The notes under the pieces: model-generated
The model's database searches: none
Seen by the model: only the letters and a program-made list of their open reading frames with translations
What the model was told of the DNA's origin: nothing
IMG/VR virus record: IMGVR_UViG_3300031857_001329
Coordinates: 1-24,395 of that record
Strand: one strand, 5' to 3'
DNA from: a virus
DNA length: 24,395 nucleotides
Translations under genes and position numbers: made by a program
In this document: positions 6,180 to 20,788 of the stretch, one piece after another
How positions within the stretch are numbered: the first letter of the stretch is position 1
How the letters are laid out: each line of letters starts with the position of its first letter

Positions 6180-6207
6180 TTGACTCTACCTAACAACTTG
6201 TTATGAT
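6180..6207 (+). promoter_or_regulatory. rightward early promoter (sigma70-like)
   Basis: TTGACT at 6180-6185 and TATGAT at 6202-6207 are separated by 16 bases, each one or two mismatches from the -35 and -10 consensus. Transcription would start about 25 bases before the first rightward gene at 6241. Operator 2 fills the spacer. A leftward promoter must also exist here, but I see only weak candidates on the other strand. Confidence 0.75.
6191..6203. promoter_or_regulatory. operator palindrome 2 inside the rightward promoter
   Basis: TAACAACTTGTTA, with the same half-sites as operator 1 and only the central base differing. It sits between the -35 and -10 boxes and touches the -10, so a bound repressor would exclude RNA polymerase from the rightward promoter. 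Confidence 0.78.
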
Positions 6208-7212: not shown

Positions 7213-7457
7213 AACAACATAAATTGCATAAAGAAATAACAAGAAGCTATAAAAAAACTATATTGGAAAGACTAGAAAGTGATAATGAATTTTGGGATAT
7301 TATTTTTAAAACTCAATATCCATTAAGTGATGATGAAATAAGAGATATAGTAATTGAATGTAATTCTGTTGATTTAATTGAAGAAGTAATGCCTGAAACA
7401 TTAAATGAATTTGCAAGAGCCATAGAAAAAGCACATGGCATAGGAGAAGATAAATGA
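7209..7457 (+). CDS. hypothetical early protein sharing an N-terminus with its neighbour, 82 aa
   Basis: An 82-residue helical acidic protein. Its first 31 coding bases are identical to those of the upstream gene except for one base (MKQHKLHKEI against MKQHKWHKEI), while the rest is unrelated. It ends FARAIEKAHGIGEDK, an ending I recognise from other small phage proteins. Function unknown. GAGGAAA precedes the start, which overlaps the upstream stop by four bases. The shared leader suggests a local duplication of start region and ribosome-binding context. Confidence 0.75.
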   Translation: MKQHKLHKEITRSYKKTILERLESDNEFWDIIFKTQYPLSDDEIRDIVIECNSVDLIEEVMPETLNEFARAIEKAHGIGEDK

Positions 7458-7990
7458 TTACTTTTAACGTATTAAAAAAGATCAACGTCAACAATCATAC
7501 CGAAAAGAAAGGAAACTTAACTTATCTTTCTTGGGCATGGGCAGTAGATCAATTATTAACTAATGATCCAGCAGCCACCTGGGAATACAAAGAGCCTAAA
7601 CAATTTAACGACACCTTAATGGTGTTTTGCTCGGTGACGGCTTTTGGTAAAACTATGACCGCCCAGCTGCCTGTATTAGATTACAAAAATAAAGCGGTAG
7701 TAAACCCTGACGCCATGGCAGTTAATACAGCTATGCAGCGATGCCTGGCCAAGGCTATTGCTTTACATGGAATTGGTTTATATATCTACGCAGGCGAGGA
7801 TGTGCCTCAAGAGCAACCAGCTTCAGACGAGGAAATAAACCAAGTATTAGAAGCTATAAATGAAGCAGAGTCTATTGAGTCTTTAAAAGAAATATTTAAA
7901 GAGGCTCAAAAAAGGTTTGGTAGTCAGCCTGATGTAATAACGACTATCCGTTCAGCACTATCAACTCAAAAAACTAAATTGGAGGAATAA
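7454..7990 (+). CDS. single-strand annealing protein, Sak3/DUF1071 type
   Basis: A 178-residue protein of the DUF1071 family, the Sak3 group of phage single-strand annealing proteins. Diagnostic blocks: GNLTYLSWAWAVDQLL at 22-37, WEYKEP, the middle FGKTMTAQLPVLDYKNKAV, and MAVNTAMQRCLAKAIALHG at about 88-106 followed by GLGLYIYAGED-like residues. The C-terminal 45 residues are a variable helical extension. It anneals complementary ssDNA during recombination. The exonuclease gene two genes downstream is the usual partner, giving a Red-like pair. The start overlaps the previous stop (ATGA). Confidence 0.92.
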   Translation: MITFNVLKKINVNNHTEKKGNLTYLSWAWAVDQLLTNDPAATWEYKEPKQFNDTLMVFCSVTAFGKTMTAQLPVLDYKNKAVVNPDAMAVNTAMQRCLAKAIALHGIGLYIYAGEDVPQEQPASDEEINQVLEAINEAESIESLKEIFKEAQKRFGSQPDVITTIRSALSTQKTKLEE

Positions 7991-8206
7991 ATGAATCAAC
8001 AAGAACGCTTAACAAAGTATTTAGAAAAACATGGCAAGATTGATCCATTAAAAGCATGGTCTCAATTAGGCATATATCGGTTAGCAGATACCATTTTTAA
8101 CTTACGCAAAAAAGGTTATGAAATTAAAACCAATACTAAAAAAGTTAAAAATAAATATAAAGAAGTTTGTCATGTAGCTGAATACAAGCTGGAGCCTCAA
8201 AAATGA
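7991..8206 (+). CDS. small helix-turn-helix protein, 71 aa
   Basis: A 71-residue basic protein: LTKYLEKHGKIDPLKAWSQL, then GIYRLADTIFNLRKKGYEIK, then a Lys-rich wing ending AEYKL. This is the winged helix-turn-helix found in many short phage proteins (helix, 'GIxRLAxxIxxLRxxGY'). DNA binding is likely, the target unknown. It lies between annealing protein and exonuclease genes, GGAGG is seven bases before the ATG, and its end overlaps the exonuclease start by four bases. Confidence 0.8.
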   Translation: MNQQERLTKYLEKHGKIDPLKAWSQLGIYRLADTIFNLRKKGYEIKTNTKKVKNKYKEVCHVAEYKLEPQK

Positions 8207-8838
8207 TTGCTAACGATTGCACACATTTAGAGCAAGGCTCAACTGAATGGGTTATGGCTAGGTTGGGCTTTGTTAGTGCCAGCAATATAGCAGAGGTTAT
8301 GTCAAAAGGTAAAACAGGCGAGGCAATAGGTCGTAAGAAATATAAAACTCGCCTTGTAGCTGAAAGACTAACCATGCAACCTTTAGAGTCTTATTCTAAT
8401 GAAGCGATGGCGTGGGGAGTTGAAAACGAACCGTTGGCAGCCATGGCTTACGAAGCAGCAACAGGCACGTTTTTAGAAAAAACAGGATTTTGGAAGCATC
8501 CTGAAATTCAATGGCTTGGTGTTTCACCTGATCGTTTACTAGGCGACAAACATTTAATTGAAATCAAATGTCCGAATACGACAACGCATTTAGATTATAT
8601 TTTTGAGAATAAAGTGCCTGGCGATTACTATAAACAAATTCAATGTCAATTATGGGTTACAGGTCGCGAGTGGGCAGATTTCGTTTCATACGACCCACGA
8701 CTACCATTTAAAAATCGCTTGTTTATTAGCCGCGTTGAAAAAGACCAATCAATGATTAAAGAAATGGAATTAGAAGTAAAACAATTCCTATCTGAAGTTG
8801 AAGAGTTAATTTTACGTCTAGAAAATGACAAAAATTGA
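8203..8838 (+). CDS. YqaJ-type phage recombination exonuclease
   Basis: A 211-residue lambda-exonuclease-type nuclease. In order: QGSTEWVMARLGFVSASN (11-28), the helix with WGVENEPLA (71-79), GVSPDRL (106-112), LIEIKCP (118-124) and QIQCQLWVTGREW (145-157). D110, E120 and K122 form the PD-(D/E)xK metal-binding site. The enzyme degrades one strand of dsDNA and exposes ssDNA for the annealing protein encoded just upstream. Length is normal for the family. Its end overlaps a possible extended -10 promoter for the next gene. Confidence 0.95.
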   Translation: MIANDCTHLEQGSTEWVMARLGFVSASNIAEVMSKGKTGEAIGRKKYKTRLVAERLTMQPLESYSNEAMAWGVENEPLAAMAYEAATGTFLEKTGFWKHPEIQWLGVSPDRLLGDKHLIEIKCPNTTTHLDYIFENKVPGDYYKQIQCQLWVTGREWADFVSYDPRLPFKNRLFISRVEKDQSMIKEMELEVKQFLSEVEELILRLENDKN

Positions 8839-9525: not shown

Positions 9526-9635
9526 AAATATTTGATATAGTAATCAAAGTTTTAATGTTTTTTGGTTTTGTCGGTCTTTTGATCGGCATTTTTTTCACGC
9601 TTGAACTTTTATTTGGAACTTACATATGTCATTAA
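9522..9635 (+). CDS. 37-aa membrane peptide
   Basis: A 37-residue peptide starting MKIFDIVIKVLMFFGFVGLL with a single span (about residues 5-28), ending LFGTYICH. It overlaps the previous gene by four bases (ATGA) and the phosphoesterase gene by ten, so it fills the gap exactly. It is the third one-span peptide of the rightward operon. Function unknown. Confidence 0.55.
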   Translation: MKIFDIVIKVLMFFGFVGLLIGIFFTLELLFGTYICH

Positions 9636-10840
9636 AAAAAGAACAATTGTTGGAGGCGGTTGACGCTTTTAATAAGACAGGAAGTGAAACCAAAGCAGCA
9701 GAGTTACTAGGCATTAAAAGAGCTTGTTTACAGGGAAGGTTAAAGGCAGCTAAACTAGCAAACCTATTCACAGCACTACCACCTGAAACTCAAATCCCAC
9801 CTGAAATAGCTTTAAAAGATAAAATACGAACCCTTGAAGCGCAAATAGCTTCATTCAATCGTGACGTATTAAGTGAAAATTACGTTAAGTCTAAAATTCT
9901 TAAAATGGTGGATAAGAAACCTTCACCACCAACATGGCTAGTTAAACCTAGCTCTAGTAAATCCGCTCCAGGCGTGCCTACATTGTTTGCATCAGATTGG
10001 CATTGGGGAGAGAACGTAGACCCTAACCAAATTAATAATGTCAATTCATATAATATGAAAATAGCTCACAAACGAGCTAAAAAAATGATAGAGGTGGCTA
10101 TTGATTTATTAAATAATCACATGGTTAACCCTAAATATCCAGGAATTGTATTTGCGCTAGGCGGCGATATGGTGTCAGGCGATATTCACGAGGAATTGAT
10201 GGCCACCAACGATGCAGAGATTATGCCTGTGGTTATAGACTTATTCGGTGTGCTAATTTGGTGTATATCTACCCTAGCTGATCAATTTGGAAAAGTGTTT
10301 GTGCCATGCGTAGGCGGTAACCATGGCCGTAATACCCACAAAATTAGAAACAAAGGCCGTAACTTTACGTCTTTTGATTGGCTAACCTATCAATTTTTAG
10401 CCAAACACTTTGAATCAGATAGCCGAGTATCCTTTCACATACCTGACGGCCCTGACGCTATATACGCTATTTACAACCATAAATACCTATTAACCCATGG
10501 CGATCAGTTTAGAGGTGGTGACGGCGTTATTGGCGCTTTAGGCCCTATCATACGAGGCGACCATAAAAAGCGGTCTAGGAACGCACAAATAGACATGGAA
10601 TACGATACAATGATTATTGGCCATTTTCACCAGCTAATACAATTAGAGCGTTTAATAGTAAACGGTTCGCTAAAAGGTTACTGTGAATATGCTTATAGTA
10701 ATAACTTTGGTTTTGAACCGCCAAGGCAAGCTTTATGGATAACGCATCCCTATCATGGCATAACATTTTCTATGCCTGTCAACGTGGATGTATCTTTTGA
10801 AAATTCAGATAAATCAGAGTGGGTAAGCTGGAAAGGCTAA
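9626..10840 (+). CDS. HTH-metallophosphoesterase fusion protein
   Basis: A 404-residue protein. Residues 5-45 look like a Fis/HTH DNA-binding unit (EAVDAFNKTGSETKAAELLG, then IKRACLQGRL). Residues 115-375 are a calcineurin-like phosphoesterase with the five metal motifs in order: DWHWG (124-128), GGD (179-181), GNHGR (231-235), THGD (290-293) and GHFHQ (332-336). Phages often carry such proteins in the recombination region, sometimes compared to Mre11/SbcD nucleases, but the substrate (DNA, nucleotide or other) cannot be told here. The DNA-binding end favours a nuclease or DNA-bound phosphatase. It overlaps the upstream peptide gene and is followed one base later by the SprT-like gene. Confidence 0.88.
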   Translation: MSLKKEQLLEAVDAFNKTGSETKAAELLGIKRACLQGRLKAAKLANLFTALPPETQIPPEIALKDKIRTLEAQIASFNRDVLSENYVKSKILKMVDKKPSPPTWLVKPSSSKSAPGVPTLFASDWHWGENVDPNQINNVNSYNMKIAHKRAKKMIEVAIDLLNNHMVNPKYPGIVFALGGDMVSGDIHEELMATNDAEIMPVVIDLFGVLIWCISTLADQFGKVFVPCVGGNHGRNTHKIRNKGRNFTSFDWLTYQFLAKHFESDSRVSFHIPDGPDAIYAIYNHKYLLTHGDQFRGGDGVIGALGPIIRGDHKKRSRNAQIDMEYDTMIIGHFHQLIQLERLIVNGSLKGYCEYAYSNNFGFEPPRQALWITHPYHGITFSMPVNVDVSFENSDKSEWVSWKG

Positions 10841-10841
10841 A

Positions 10842-11186
10842 ATGTCTGCAATTATTACAGAGCAAAGCGTAAAAATGATTTATTCAATGCTTCGTAAATT
10901 GCCGCCATTTGATTCCTGGAAACTTCCACCTGCATCAAAAATAAAATTTAAAGTTGACCCTGATTTTAAGTTTATGGGCGAGTTAGATGTAAAACCTTAC
11001 AAAATGACCTTTGGCACTAAACACCAAGAGCATTTTTTAAGCATAGTAACAACCGTGGCTCATGAAATGGTGCATTTGCATTTATACCTGGAAGGAGTCG
11101 CGTCTTACAACCAACACAGGCGCATTTTTAGGCAAAAATCTGCTGAAATAGGGTCATTATACGGATTTGACAGAAAAACCCTGTAA
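10842..11186 (+). CDS. SprT-like metallopeptidase-fold protein
   Basis: A 114-residue protein with the zinc-peptidase motif HEMVHLH at 74-80 (H74, E75, H78) and a later ASYNQHRRIF that may give the third ligand (H92), then SAEIGSLYGFD. This is the layout of SprT-like proteins. The family is linked in eukaryotes to digestion of DNA-protein crosslinks (Spartan). In phages the role is unknown. GGAAAGG precedes the ATG. It follows the phosphoesterase gene closely, which suggests joint handling of blocked DNA ends, as an inference only. Confidence 0.85.
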   Translation: MSAIITEQSVKMIYSMLRKLPPFDSWKLPPASKIKFKVDPDFKFMGELDVKPYKMTFGTKHQEHFLSIVTTVAHEMVHLHLYLEGVASYNQHRRIFRQKSAEIGSLYGFDRKTL

Positions 11187-11238: not shown

Positions 11239-11511
11239 ATGAAAAATACCACTGAAATAAATACTATTTTAGATGAAAGAGGTAAAAATTACGGTGAATT
11301 TAAAACTCATGCCGAAATTACTATGATGTTTAAAAGAATATTAGCTGATTATCAAATTGAAAAATTTGATGATGATCAAATAGAAGCTTTGCACATGATA
11401 TTTCATAAAATAGGTCGTATTATTAATGGCGATCCTAATTATATAGATAGCTGGATTGATATAGCAGGTTATGCTAAATTGGTGTCAGATAGATTAGAAA
11501 AAAAAGATTAA
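11239..11511 (+). CDS. DUF6378-like phage protein, 90 aa
   Basis: A 90-residue helical protein: ILDERGKNYGEFKTHAEIT, FDDDQIEALHMIFHKIGRII, then NYIDSWIDIAGYAKLVSDRL. These blocks match the DUF6378 family of phage proteins as I know it. It contains His and Asp residues on helices (H24, H47, H51, D66, D69), reminiscent of all-alpha NTP-pyrophosphatase-like folds, though that is a guess. GGAGG lies before the ATG. A 52-base gap separates it from the SprT-like gene, and 86 bases separate it from pqqA. Confidence 0.8.
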   Translation: MKNTTEINTILDERGKNYGEFKTHAEITMMFKRILADYQIEKFDDDQIEALHMIFHKIGRIINGDPNYIDSWIDIAGYAKLVSDRLEKKD

Positions 11512-11551
11512 TGATTTTACTGATGGTTTTGTATTGCAAAAAAGCCATAAT

Positions 11552-11582
11552 TTGCGTAACAAGTAATTTTGCTTGTTATAAA
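11552..11582 (+). promoter_or_regulatory. candidate pqqA promoter with inverted repeat
   Basis: TTGCGT at 11552-11557 and TATAAA at 11577-11582 are a possible -35/-10 pair (19-base spacer, or 18 to TTATAA). Between and over them lies an inverted repeat TAACAAG (11557-11563) and CTTGTTA (11572-11578) with an eight-base loop. Its ends carry the same TAACAA/TTGTTA half-sites as the two main operators, but ten bases apart instead of one. It could be a regulatory site or simply a hairpin. Confidence 0.35.
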
Positions 11583-11597
11583 TGAAAGGCTAAAATT

Positions 11598-11669
11598 ATG
11601 TGGACAACTCCAGCTGTATCAGAAATGAGATTTGGTTTTGAAGTTACTATGTATGTTATGAATAAATAG
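11598..11669 (+). CDS. pqqA: PqqA: PQQ precursor peptide encoded by the phage
   Basis: A 23-residue peptide with the full signature of PqqA, the ribosomal precursor of pyrroloquinoline quinone. It begins MWTTPAVSEMR and continues FGFEVTMY. W2, P5, R11, G13 and the E15-V-T-x-Y19 core are in register with bacterial PqqA of 23-24 residues. Glu15 and Tyr19 are the two side chains that PqqE, with PqqD, crosslinks before PqqB, PqqC and a protease finish PQQ. GAAAGG lies eight bases before the ATG. It is the last recognised gene of the rightward operon, just before a strong terminator. No other pqq gene is in the window, so it would depend on host enzymes. This suggests a PQQ-using host such as a methanol-oxidising methylotroph. 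Confidence 0.9.
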   Translation: MWTTPAVSEMRFGFEVTMYVMNK

Positions 11670-11718
11670 TAGCTTTAAAAGGTGGATAGCGTTCCTCAGA
11701 AAAACATATCCAATTAAG

Positions 11719-11747
11719 AAAGGGCAGAAATGCCCTTTTTTATTTTA
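11719..11747 (+). terminator. intrinsic terminator ending the rightward operon
   Basis: AAAGGGCA (11719-11726), GAAA loop, TGCCCTTT (11731-11738), then TTTATTTT: a perfect eight-base stem with a GNRA-type tetraloop and a U-rich tail. It lies between pqqA and the convergent late operon. On the other strand the stem is followed by a weaker U-rich stretch, so it may also slow leftward late transcripts that end at 11745. Confidence 0.9.
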
Positions 11748-11855: not shown

Positions 11856-12019
11856 TACTTTTTAGGATGTGCTTTAGACATTGGCTCTCTTTCGTGAGCT
11901 TTTAGTTCACGAGCCAATCTTTCAACTTTAGCTTTTTCTTTTTCCCAATCCTTCATCATAGCCATTTCTTTTTTCTCGTGACGAATAGATGGTTCACATT
12001 TTTCTAGTTTCATTTTCAT
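11855..12019 (-). CDS. 54-aa charged coiled-coil protein after the endolysin
   Basis: A 54-residue protein that is mostly one very charged helix: RHEKKEMAMMKDWEKEKAKV, then ERLARELKAHERE, ending SKAHPKK. The start overlaps the endolysin stop by three bases. A second in-frame ATG two codons downstream is possible. It has no membrane segment. Small charged helices in lysis cassettes are sometimes spanin parts, but there is no lipobox or anchor here, so I leave the role open. Confidence 0.65.
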   Translation of the reverse strand: MKMKLEKCEPSIRHEKKEMAMMKDWEKEKAKVERLARELKAHEREPMSKAHPKK

Positions 12020-12450
12020 TTTTTAAAAGTCCTCGTTCCTGATTTATCAATAATTAAATTTTGTTTCCTTGGGGTTTCTTTGCTAAATGCAATATGAACC
12101 CATCTGTCAAATTCCAAAATAAGTTGATCGTAAATGACATCACTATCCATAAGACGAATAACAATGCTCCTAGGGCTACCAAAGGCAGGGCAAACAAAAT
12201 CAGCAGCCAAACCTTTAGTATGTGCGCTTGTAGGTTTGCTTCCAAGTGTTGCGTTAACGAGAGGACTACGATAAGCGCTGTTAATATGTATAGGTTTGCC
12301 AAGTATAGACCTCACTTTTTCTAGATTATCAGCCAAAAATTTAATGTTATTTAAAATTTCAGGATTGTCAGGCATATTGTTTATGTCTAAACGATCAGCA
12401 ATTTCAGAGGCATATAGTTCCTCTAAAGTAAAATGCGGAGTTAATTTCAT
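12016..12450 (-). CDS. endolysin, M15 family D-Ala-D-Ala carboxypeptidase/endopeptidase-like
   Basis: A 144-residue peptidase of the M15 (VanY/M15A) type. Seen: HFTLEELYASEIA, SAYRS at 58-62, SAHTKGLAAD at 75-84 and WVHIAFS at 117-123. H77, D84 and H119 are the zinc ligands. The family cuts peptide stems of peptidoglycan. There is no signal sequence, so it needs the holin encoded immediately upstream. The gene begins four bases inside the holin end. Length is normal for small phage endolysins. Confidence 0.93.
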   Translation of the reverse strand: MKLTPHFTLEELYASEIADRLDINNMPDNPEILNNIKFLADNLEKVRSILGKPIHINSAYRSPLVNATLGSKPTSAHTKGLAADFVCPAFGSPRSIVIRLMDSDVIYDQLILEFDRWVHIAFSKETPRKQNLIIDKSGTRTFKK

Positions 12451-12839
12451 TTAAATTTTAATTTTTCAACAGTTCTTAATGTTCCCATACCTAATAAACC
12501 TAATAAGACTGTTAAAAGAGTGTCCATTTGAAAAGGCACAATAATTGGTTGCTGTCCGCAAAGCATAAGAACCCAATTGAGTATAGGGAATATGACGAAG
12601 TGTAATCCAAAAGCCACAGAACATATCCAACCAACGCTTGGCCTCCAGCCTGATTTAAAAAAGCTGTTAGATTGAGCTTCAATAGCATTAACTTTAATCT
12701 GTTCAATAGCAATTTGAAAATCTTGTCCTGCTAATATAGTTTGTAATTGTTCTTGCGCTTCTTTACGTTTGTTTGTATCAGGAATAACTTTTTCTAATAC
12801 AGAACCAACAATACCTACAACGGAGTCAATAATACTCAT
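12447..12839 (-). CDS. holin of the three-TM type
   Basis: A 130-residue membrane protein. After an amphipathic N-terminus (1-60, ending in KVNAIEAQSNSFFKSG), the conserved GWRPSVGW occurs at 64-71. It is followed by long hydrophobic stretches at about 69-95 and 100-122 and a short basic tail, TVEKLKFK. This is the layout of the 'holin of 3TMs, for gene-transfer release' family. It would form the membrane lesion that frees the M15 endolysin encoded right after it (ATGA overlap). It overlaps the upstream gene by one base. Confidence 0.9.
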   Translation of the reverse strand: MSIIDSVVGIVGSVLEKVIPDTNKRKEAQEQLQTILAGQDFQIAIEQIKVNAIEAQSNSFFKSGWRPSVGWICSVAFGLHFVIFPILNWVLMLCGQQPIIVPFQMDTLLTVLLGLLGMGTLRTVEKLKFK

Positions 12840-18445: not shown

Positions 18446-18674
18446 TATAATACGGAATCTTAAACGGCTTTCCGTTAACCGTTACATTAATAAAGCCTGC
18501 TGGTTTAGCAGGTAACGTTGCTGTTCCTGTAGTTGCTGTTTGTGAACTACTAAAATTAAGCAAGTTTAAAAAGAATTGTTGCCAAGCACGAGTTGGTCTT
18601 TTGGTCGTAGAATCTAAAAACTCCGACTGTGGATAAGGGTTTTGTTGGCTTGTGCCATAAATGTTATTAGCCAT
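18438..18674 (-). CDS. small structural protein, 78 aa
   Basis: A 78-residue protein with SEFLDSTTKRPTRAWQQFFL (17-36), a Thr/Ala/Pro stretch (TGTATLPAKPAGFI) and an end NGKPFKIPYYNE. Short proteins with exactly this pattern (FLDxxTxRPTRxWQxFF, then PAGFIxVxVNGxxxKIPYY) are common between tail and ejection genes of podoviruses, and are probably virion components of unknown role. It starts one base inside the gp10-like stop. Confidence 0.78.
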   Translation of the reverse strand: MANNIYGTSQQNPYPQSEFLDSTTKRPTRAWQQFFLNLLNFSSSQTATTGTATLPAKPAGFINVTVNGKPFKIPYYNE

Positions 18675-20788
18675 TAATTCTCACCTACGGTTGCTTTTAG
18701 ATTAGCAGATATTATAACCGCATTTATAGGGTCTGTAACTACTACCTCAAAAACTCTATCTCTAGACCAACCTAATCTGCGCCAAATAGCACGATTATTA
18801 TACTGACCAACCTTACCAATAGAAGTCCAATGCTCATAAGACCAAGTAGAACCGCCGTCATTAGACCAACGAAGCATAGCTTGAGGTATTTTACCTGGAT
18901 CAACTTGATTGCCTACGCCTGGTTGAAATTGGATTTGTAATTCCTCTAAATACTGACGTTGTAAGTCGCTTACAATATGAGGCGCTCTGCGTAATCTACG
19001 AATCTCACCACCGTTGTCGGTATAGTTAGAAGGGTCAAGTAAATAGATTTGACCGTTAGAATGATCACCTACATATACCTTGCCTTGAAATACAGCAGAG
19101 CAATTACCACGATGTCTATGATAAGTATTAGTGGTATCTACCCATAACCATTTATGCCACATTCCTGTAGATATGTCATATACCCAAGTTAAGTCTAATG
19201 TTGGGAATGAAACCACATAACATTCGTGACCTTCTTGTTGATAAGTCCAAGCTACTGCGTCATCTATATATTGATTTAACAATGTTTGCTCTACAGCGTG
19301 AGTTGAAATGCGTGTGGGAACGTAACCTTGCATTTGCATAATTTGCGCTTCACCACGATTGTTTCTAGATACATAAGCAAATGAATTACCTAGTCTAGAC
19401 ATAGAAAATTTGGCTGCTATGCCATGTTGTGTGTTTGTGCCAGGTATTCTTTGGAAAGGGAAAGGGAACGTTCCAACGTTAACCCATACTTCAGATGAAG
19501 CTTCACCAAGTAAAAATACTTCACGATTAACTACAATTAAAGATACTAAATCGTCAGGCGATCCGTCTTTAGATGAAAAGCTTAATGGTGGCGTAATAGG
19601 GCTTAAAGGGTTAGAAGCTGCGTATTGTTGAGTGCCGCCTTTATTAAATACAAAATAGTTATCTACAATATCAAGCGTATTACCACCTTCAAATGCACCG
19701 TCAGATGAAGGTAATACACTAAAGTTTAAAGCATACATTGTGCGTGAAGCTACAGATTGGCTTGTGCTTATAAGGTAATTACCTGTGCTACCAGCTCCTG
19801 TTCCAAATGTAATTGTTAATGTTAAGCCTGTGCCTGATCCGCTTGAGGAAGTAGAAACATTATTAGCTGGGACAGAAGTATAGTTACCTGAATTGGTTAA
19901 TAGAAGAGTTGTTACAGCTCCACCAGCGCCAATAGCTGTAACTGTATAAGTTGCAGGTGTTGTTCCAAAAACACCGCCTAAAACGGTTACAGTATCGTTT
20001 ACAGCGTATCCTGTTCCAGCCGTTGCAATAGTTTGGCTTAATACCGTGCCTGAACCCAAAGCTGTAATCATGGTATTAGCTATAACACTAGCGCCTTGAA
20101 TAGATTGGCCAGGGAATAAAGTGCCTGTGGTAGCTGTTACAGTTAAAGTAGTGCCTGACATTGAAGCTGTTAATACTGAAGCTACAGCGGCAGAATTCAT
20201 TAATGTAGAAGCTACAGTTTGGCTTAAATTAACTGAATATGTGCCAATACCACCTGTTGTTCCTGTTAATTGGCCTGTAATAACAGTTTGCTCGGTAACA
20301 TTTAAACCAAATAAAGATTGGCTTGCACCAATTGTGCCTTGTGTGACTGCGGTAACTGTTAAAGTTGTGCCTGAAATAGAGCCTGTAAACAAAGCGCTTG
20401 AAGGAGTAGATATACGCCATGTGTAGCGATATGATCCGTCAACAATATAAACATTTAAGCCATTGTCAGATATACCTACACGACCTGTTGAGGTATTTAA
20501 TTGACCCACCATAGTTGGCGTTAATTCATTGGTTAAAACATATACATATTGTCCGACCACAGCCACCATGTAATCGCCACCTGAAACGGTTCGCATACCA
20601 CGAACTTCTTGGGCGTTTTGAAACGTAATTTTAGAAGATAATCCAGGTGTGGGATATAAAGCTACAACACCTCTTTTGCCCTCGCCTTTTAATGGATCAA
20701 TTTCAGGCCTAAAGTTAATACACTCTTGGCCATCTTGATAAATGGAAGGTGCTTCATAACTTGGGCCTACAAATCCAAAATCAGCCAT
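18674..20788 (-). CDS. P22 gp10-like packaged-DNA stabilization protein with inserted beta modules
   Basis: A 704-residue protein. The N-terminus (MADFGFVGPSYEAPSIYQDG, CINFRPEIDP) and the long C-terminal part (MWHKWLWVDTTNTYHRHRG, the LDPSNYTDNGGEIRRLRRAP stretch, then RWSNDGGSTW) match the P22 gp10 family, a tail hub protein closing the portal channel after packaging. Between residues about 134 and 351 there is an insertion of Thr/Ser/Gly-rich beta modules that is not part of the usual core. The protein is therefore longer than the usual 470-500 residues by about the size of the insertion. It overlaps the gp4-like gene by one base. Confidence 0.92.
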   Translation of the reverse strand: MADFGFVGPSYEAPSIYQDGQECINFRPEIDPLKGEGKRGVVALYPTPGLSSKITFQNAQEVRGMRTVSGGDYMVAVVGQYVYVLTNELTPTMVGQLNTSTGRVGISDNGLNVYIVDGSYRYTWRISTPSSALFTGSISGTTLTVTAVTQGTIGASQSLFGLNVTEQTVITGQLTGTTGGIGTYSVNLSQTVASTLMNSAAVASVLTASMSGTTLTVTATTGTLFPGQSIQGASVIANTMITALGSGTVLSQTIATAGTGYAVNDTVTVLGGVFGTTPATYTVTAIGAGGAVTTLLLTNSGNYTSVPANNVSTSSSGSGTGLTLTITFGTGAGSTGNYLISTSQSVASRTMYALNFSVLPSSDGAFEGGNTLDIVDNYFVFNKGGTQQYAASNPLSPITPPLSFSSKDGSPDDLVSLIVVNREVFLLGEASSEVWVNVGTFPFPFQRIPGTNTQHGIAAKFSMSRLGNSFAYVSRNNRGEAQIMQMQGYVPTRISTHAVEQTLLNQYIDDAVAWTYQQEGHECYVVSFPTLDLTWVYDISTGMWHKWLWVDTTNTYHRHRGNCSAVFQGKVYVGDHSNGQIYLLDPSNYTDNGGEIRRLRRAPHIVSDLQRQYLEELQIQFQPGVGNQVDPGKIPQAMLRWSNDGGSTWSYEHWTSIGKVGQYNNRAIWRRLGWSRDRVFEVVVTDPINAVIISANLKATVGEN
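19736..20173 (-). other. second beta module of gp10, interrupted by another module
   Basis: Residues about 206-351 of the gp10-like protein. The first half, SMSGTTLTVTATTGTLFPGQ then ANTMITALGSGT, and the second half, GSTGNYLISTSQSVASRTM, together make one copy of the module. Between them (about 19790-20044) lies another recurring module starting TIATAGTGYAVNDTVTVLGG and ending SSSGSGTGLTLTITFG. The copy is thus split by a nested insertion. Confidence 0.72.
20189..20389 (-). other. first beta module inserted in gp10
   Basis: Residues about 134-200 of the gp10-like protein: FTGSISGTTLTVTAVTQGTI, then LTGTTGGIGTYSVNLSQTV. The pattern, a Gly/Ser/Thr-rich repeat with SGTTLTVTAVxxGTI, GTIxxGQxI and GTYxVxxSQTV, recurs in many phage tail proteins, and the gp4-like neighbour has a copy too. 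Confidence 0.75.

Follow-up and report, generated by a model that had tools for sequence, protein, structure and literature searches.

A phage-encoded PQQ precursor peptide, PqqA, as a likely substrate-only auxiliary metabolic gene of methylotroph phages

Introduction

Why would a phage carry a 72-base gene for the precursor peptide of the cofactor PQQ? In PQQ synthesis, PqqD binds the leader of PqqA and PqqE joins a Glu and a Tyr of the peptide (PMC10906245). The gene considered here lies in a viral stretch of 24,395 nucleotides (IMG/VR record IMGVR_UViG_3300031857_001329), which we call the window. The original prediction was that this single small gene could raise PQQ output, and so flux through the PQQ-dependent methanol dehydrogenase of a methylotroph, at very low genome cost. 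We examined the gene and its surroundings, its occurrence in cultured and environmental phages, its conservation among relatives, and the PQQ genes of the probable hosts.

Results

The pqqA gene in its phage operon

The features of the window referred to below are as follows.

6180-6207, +: sigma-70-like promoter match (10/12) before the first rightward gene; a weak candidate operon promoter
7454-7990, +: SAK-type single-strand annealing protein (Pfam and PHROG)
8203-8838, +: YqaJ-like recombination exonuclease (Pfam and PHROG)
9626-10840, +: phage exonuclease / metallophosphoesterase-like protein (phrog_284), the query for fetching syntenic relatives
10842-11186, +: SprT-like protein (match below the curated cut-off)
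11239-11511, +: DUF6378 protein (PF19905, E 6.5e-10), directly 5' of pqqA
11536-11555 and 11558-11577, +: two short leader hairpins between the DUF6378 gene and pqqA, from the sequence of relatives
11585-11589, +: Shine-Dalgarno-like AAAGG, 8 bases before the ATG
11598-11669, +: pqqA, 23-residue PQQ precursor peptide MWTTPAVSEMRFGFEVTMYVMNK, crosslink pair E15/Y19 (PF08042 and TIGR02107)
11682-11712, +: stem-loop GGTGGATA-GCGTTCCTCAGAAAAACA-TATCC with loop GCGTTCCTCAGAAAAAC, between pqqA and the terminator
11715-11742, +: rho-independent-type terminator hairpin that closes the rightward operon (predicted to form 12 pairs)
12016-12450, -: M15 peptidase endolysin of the converging operon (Pfam and PHROG)
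12447-12839, -: holin of the converging operon (PHROG)
18674-20788, -: head-closure Hc3 / packaged-DNA stabilisation protein, a virion hallmark (PHROG)

The ORF at 11598-11669 encodes a complete PqqA, as had been proposed, with W2, P5, G13, E15 and Y19 all found in the sequence, E15 and Y19 being the Glu-x-x-x-Tyr pair that PqqE crosslinks. Its identity is borne out by scores of 41.6 bits against PF08042 (E 1.1e-10, cut-off 21.1) and 44.2 bits against the NCBIfam equivalog TIGR02107 (E 1.1e-11, cut-off 20), about two-fold over the cut-off in bits for both curated models, and a six-frame search of the whole record returned this single PqqA match (E 2.9e-11). No PHROG match was found for the peptide, so phage annotation that uses the PHROG library cannot name the gene. 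Comparison with Methylophilaceae genomes places the ATEMRFGFEVTMYVMNK type of peptide as the Methylophilaceae type, and the window PqqA is, judged by its sequence, the Methylophilaceae form. This agrees with the methylotroph host that had been suggested, a host that for this 24-kb fragment is assigned from the peptide type.

The neighbourhood, which had been described as entirely viral, has phage genes in both flanking operons by Pfam and PHROG matches. The rightward operon encodes the SAK annealing protein, the YqaJ exonuclease, a cell-wall hydrolase/endolysin, the phrog_284 exonuclease, the SprT-like and DUF6378 proteins and, as its last gene, PqqA, while the converging operon beside it includes the M15 endolysin, the holin and Hc3. 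The ribosome-binding site and the terminator attributed to pqqA were likewise found, the former as the AAAGG at 11585-11589 and the latter as a hairpin that folds well (MFE of the 81-nt region -22.1 kcal/mol, z -3.6). A simple terminator scan did not list this hairpin; related GC-rich hairpins with T runs stand 3' of many syntenic pqqA copies. Promoter matches near pqqA were weak, and their number in the region was not above that in shuffled sequences.

Two further elements flank the gene. Hairpins with altered stems also precede the Shine-Dalgarno site in syntenic relatives (L362-L408), and those of the window are possibly a leader element. The stem-loop at 11682-11712 is near-identical in ten relatives (including L306, L349, L363, L371, L372, L373, L375, L395 and L408), one of which, L373, retains it where pqqA is deleted, and a related stem-loop occurs in the cultured phage P19250A. 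Rfam gave no RNA family match in the window. At 33-1217 on the minus strand the window also encodes a DNA methyltransferase with a ParB-like start, whose counterparts in Vibrio phages, D93 among them, are about 66% identical.

Cultured phages carry unannotated pqqA genes

A tblastn search with PqqA matched 12 of 50,697 phage records. Nine come from Methylophilales/Methylophilaceae isolates (P19250A, Venkman, MEP301, MEP401, MEP402 and four Melnitz strains), one from a Manatee Spring virus, and two are Acinetobacter contigs; the tally covers the isolates reached by the search and leaves aside MEP431-434, HIM624-A and others in the taxonomy. The pqqA-bearing isolates differ in size, taxon and gene neighbours, and the hosts of those from Methylophilales are known methylotrophs. 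One Acinetobacter record, CAKLQF020000010.1 (L007, 5001-8255; labelled Acinetobacter phage MD-2021a), is host chromosome with a pqqABCDE operon.

In the isolates the pqqA ORFs are all complete and have purine-rich Shine-Dalgarno-like sites. The expectation that gene callers would miss so short a gene proved correct for every matched isolate. The spot carries no annotation in P19250A, Venkman, MEP301, MEP401 and MEP402, and in the Melnitz phages and the Manatee Spring virus an ORF is annotated over pqqA on the opposite strand: MelnitzEXVC044M_152 over 76140-76205 of MZ577097.1 (L005) and UOF77531.1 over 2119-2187 of MW202481.1 (L006). Both opposite-strand ORFs are probably spurious. In P19250A, pqqA lies unannotated at 28085-28153 of KX815270.1 (6001-6069 of L001). 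Searches of the publications that describe Venkman, Melnitz, MEP301 and MEP401/402 turned up no mention of a phage pqqA.

A large environmental set

We scanned IMG/VR with degenerate DNA patterns for the PqqA core residues. The core FGFEVTMY alone gave at least 120 matches, and all 120 listed were complete PqqA ORFs of 23-25 residues. Together with the syntenic fetch described below, the scans yielded 306 viral loci on about 300 contigs among the matches listed (a few contigs were fetched twice), comprising 229 distinct DNA sequences and 100 distinct peptides. With the cultured isolates, these show phage copies to be widespread, as the original prediction had suspected. E[VI]TxY, and with it Glu-x3-Tyr, is kept in 306/306 of the loci among the matches listed, although for those from the pattern scans, which fix eight core residues, conservation of the core is by construction. 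An SD-like tetramer lies upstream of all 304 copies with enough sequence, against 12% of random positions.

An exhaustive IMG/VR scan for one exact 24-mer found 64 contigs. This 24-mer accounts for 15/120 of a sub-pattern which in turn accounts for 13/120 of the first sample (among the matches listed), and extrapolation gives a few thousand pqqA contigs in IMG/VR, on the order of 4,700, uncertain by about a factor of two or more in each direction. The control core IGFEVTMY, of the Pseudomonas/Acinetobacter type and seen in Acinetobacter, occurred on 2 viral contigs, both of which encode Methylophilaceae-type peptides with one residue changed. Three contigs (L027, L078 and L318) encode MKWETP/MKWDTP-type peptides like those of Methylomonas, and may belong to methanotroph phages on this resemblance. 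A phage-specific PqqA clade (the ATEM...VMNK form) was considered and dropped, as the same peptides occur in Methylophilaceae genomes.

Such a set could consist of bacterial fragments labelled viral, and mislabelling does occur: two Acinetobacter 'phage' contigs were matched, and the one examined proved to be host chromosome in which pqqBCDE lies next to the gene. This explanation is refuted for the isolates and the window. Complete isolate genomes carry pqqA. Capsid, terminase, portal and endolysin genes adjoin the viral copies, and neither pqqBCDE nor xoxF was found in the fetched DNA of any of the 306 IMG/VR loci among the matches listed. We therefore assign host contamination a negligible probability as the source of the set.

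Conservation and loss among syntenic relatives

A set free of the motif bias is provided by relatives fetched through the neighbouring exonuclease and not through the PqqA motif. Of the close relatives whose sequence continues for 0.9 kb or more downstream, 33/39 have pqqA in the same slot. The 23 distinct pqqA genes of this syntenic set have a pN/pS of 0.16, and 64% of their differences fall at third codon positions. A lack of conservation in related phages, which would have counted against a functional gene, is thereby excluded: the gene is kept, and under purifying selection.

The remaining six close relatives lack pqqA with their flanks intact, so the gene is dispensable in some settings; in L373 a deletion fuses the DUF6378 gene to a pqqA remnant. 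A more distant clade (L411-L438, 67-70% identity in the exonuclease) also lacks pqqA, which was not found anywhere in two of its 36-kb records. This sister clade may infect a non-methylotroph. No relocated pqqA was present in four records of 33-36 kb from relatives that lack the slot copy.

Gain and loss of this kind would be expected if pqqA were a passive passenger, whether the remnant of an attachment site or a neutral cassette spread by recombination. The remnant fusion in L373 fits such a reading, as does the leader plus pqqA that P19250A and a window-type phage have in common. Purifying selection contradicts it, however, and so do the intact ORF, preceded by an SD site of its own wherever this can be judged, the recurrence of pqqA in many lineages and slots, and the fact that the best host copy is not identical across the whole gene. 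A passenger origin of this sort is thus highly improbable, and the comparisons describe pqqA as a cassette that is gained and lost but kept by selection.

Genomic slots, exchange and peptide types

Among the matches listed, pqqA lies 3' of a DUF6378 gene in 39 viral loci, 3' of a phrog_371-type major head gene in 25 and 3' of a phrog_267-type major head gene in 24, and other viral loci place it near endolysin, SSB, primase or Hsp20 genes. In MEP402 it stands before structural genes, and in the Melnitz phages it adjoins a tRNA gene. The leader and pqqA are nearly the same in P19250A and a window-type phage, which points to exchange between phages. At the DNA level the window pqqA is identical to other phage copies at up to 65/69 positions and to sampled host copies at 61/69 at best, and phage PqqA peptides are often letter-for-letter those of Methylophilaceae.

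The phrog_267 lineage carries more than one peptide type in the same slot. Most members (for example L255, L264, L265, L317, L328 and L334) have a EYTEMRFGFEVTMYIATK-like PqqA just after the major head gene, a type that resembles PqqA of PQQ-dependent betaproteobacteria other than Methylophilaceae, and a minority have ATEM Methylophilaceae-like forms (three) or a methanotroph-like form (one). Two betaproteobacterial genomes with the EYTEMRFGFEVTMYIANR form encode PQQ alcohol dehydrogenases. Because one slot holds differing types, the viral peptide seems to track the presumed host group of the contigs, and the EYTEMRFGFEVTMYIATK-type phages point to one more group of hosts that depend on PQQ.

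A regulatory role is common among short phage peptides, and the viral PqqA might accordingly have a moonlighting regulatory or RiPP function unrelated to PQQ. The constraint falls, however, on the PqqA family signature itself, and comparison of the neighbours of the viral loci revealed no partner genes conserved with pqqA across lineages, so we rate a role outside PQQ synthesis as very improbable.

Host PQQ genes and the fate of the peptide

In many bacteria pqqA is linked to pqqBCDE, but this linkage is not a defining feature in Methylophilaceae. PqqA occurs in 149/150 Methylophilaceae genomes, with 1 to 12 matches each, and multiple pqqA copies beside single-copy pqqBCDE are an established trait of the family (PMC4109929). 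The three pqqA genes of OM43 strain LSUCC0665 lie at least 100 kb from a pqqBCDE operon that has no pqqA of its own. PQQ synthesis in such hosts therefore already draws PqqA in trans, and the absence of linked pqqBCDE was not counted against the viral peptides. PqqE scored over the cut-off in 7/8 host genomes, and PQQ alcohol dehydrogenase over the curated cut-off in the 2/2 tested. Since hosts already have 1-12 pqqA matches, any dosage effect would require that the host be shut off or that the phage copy be highly expressed.

A phage peptide would bind the same host proteins as the host's own, and could in principle serve as a decoy or competitor, occupying PqqD/PqqE so that host PQQ synthesis is stopped or diverted. 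Nothing would oblige a decoy to retain the Glu and Tyr that become crosslinked, yet both are kept in every copy, including those of the motif-independent syntenic set, and in many cases the phage sequence matches the host substrate exactly. We consider a decoy quite improbable.

PQQ might also be made for other ends, such as redox protection, or be released to occupy an outer-membrane PQQ receptor and so block superinfection. PQQ does block infection by a PqqU-targeting coliphage (PMC12124388), and in two lineages pqqA directly follows a major head gene, a position that suggests expression late in infection. Methylophages, however, are not known to use PqqU, and methanol dehydrogenase accounts better for the strong link with PqqA of the methylotroph type, which leaves these other ends unlikely.

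Discussion

A host-type metabolic gene is thus found within genuine phage genomes, as shown by the isolates, the hallmark neighbours and the host-type peptide, and selection maintains it in phage lineages. We consider it likely that phage pqqA is functional and acts as a 'substrate-only' auxiliary metabolic gene in phages of PQQ-dependent methylotrophs, which in the present case are Methylophilaceae. Each molecule of PQQ uses up one PqqA, while the enzymes PqqB-E are reused over many turnovers. A phage that halts host transcription would exhaust PqqA first. Expressed during infection, a 72-base phage gene could restore it, giving in trans only the consumed component to enzymes already present, with host PqqD/PqqE expected to process the phage peptide. 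Purified PqqA added to cell extract gave PQQ in 70-80% yield, according to work cited in PMC9851590. Sustained PQQ would keep the PQQ-dependent methanol dehydrogenase (XoxF/MxaF) supplied with its cofactor as host transcription breaks down, with a presumed gain in methanol oxidation that keeps the host's energy supply running.

The broader reading is that phages of PQQ-dependent methylotrophs, in many unrelated lineages, have time and again acquired just the peptide that is consumed in making PQQ, matched to the host, and so form a large, annotation-invisible class that controls cofactor supply and methanol oxidation; we hold this to be somewhat more probable than its opposite, with less confidence than the role of the gene itself. 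Methylophilaceae (OM43, LD28) are abundant methanol consumers of coastal seas and lakes, and should most of their phages prove to have pqqA, infection by viruses may regularly influence methanol oxidation. The genes belong to a class of auxiliary genes overlooked by standard gene callers and PHROGs. As peptide type seems to follow host group, PqqA also offers a marker for host prediction. The cultured phage/host pairs Venkman/H5P1, MEP401/FZCC0133, P19250A/IMCC19250 and MEP301/FZCC2181 make the proposed role directly testable.

Phage PqqA was already known from one case and from a brief mention in a sediment survey. The former is the T4-like population VP_266/VP_139 of Lake Baikal (2020), which encodes PqqA and methanol dehydrogenase and for which an aid to methanol oxidation by phage PqqA was proposed (PMC7678222). 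The same paper states that P19250A has none of those methylotroph auxiliary genes, a statement that the pqqA of P19250A contradicts as regards PqqA, so that the published view of this phage is corrected. The phages described here resemble VP_266/VP_139 in being Methylophilaceae phages with PqqA, but that was a single T4-like case with methanol dehydrogenase, whereas here there are many lineages, with no xoxF or pqqBCDE in the fetched flanks. The available part of the reservoir sediment report (PMC13188868) describes viral pqqA, pqqD and pqqE and lists viral pqq genes as phosphate-solubilising, with no analysis of the PqqA family or matching to hosts in that part. A marine ribosomal-peptide survey (PMC11118758), in the text available, filtered out mostly viral contigs and does not cover phage PqqA. 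New here are the presence of pqqA in all Methylophilales isolates matched, the large environmental set, the lack of any further PQQ gene in the vicinity, the variety of slots, and the match of phage pqqA to host type.

Compared with the PqqA of Methylophilaceae themselves, the phage copies often encode the same peptide, keep the E-x3-Y pair and are unlinked to pqqBCDE as in OM43, but they lie in phage operons with other leaders and neighbours and with no other PQQ gene in the fetched DNA. Cyanophage psbA and similar genes replace a fast-consumed part of host energy metabolism, and phage pqqA may, by analogy, do the same. Unlike genes of the psbA type, which encode an enzyme or protein subunit, the part that phage pqqA would replace is a 23-residue ribosomal substrate, consumed one-for-one.
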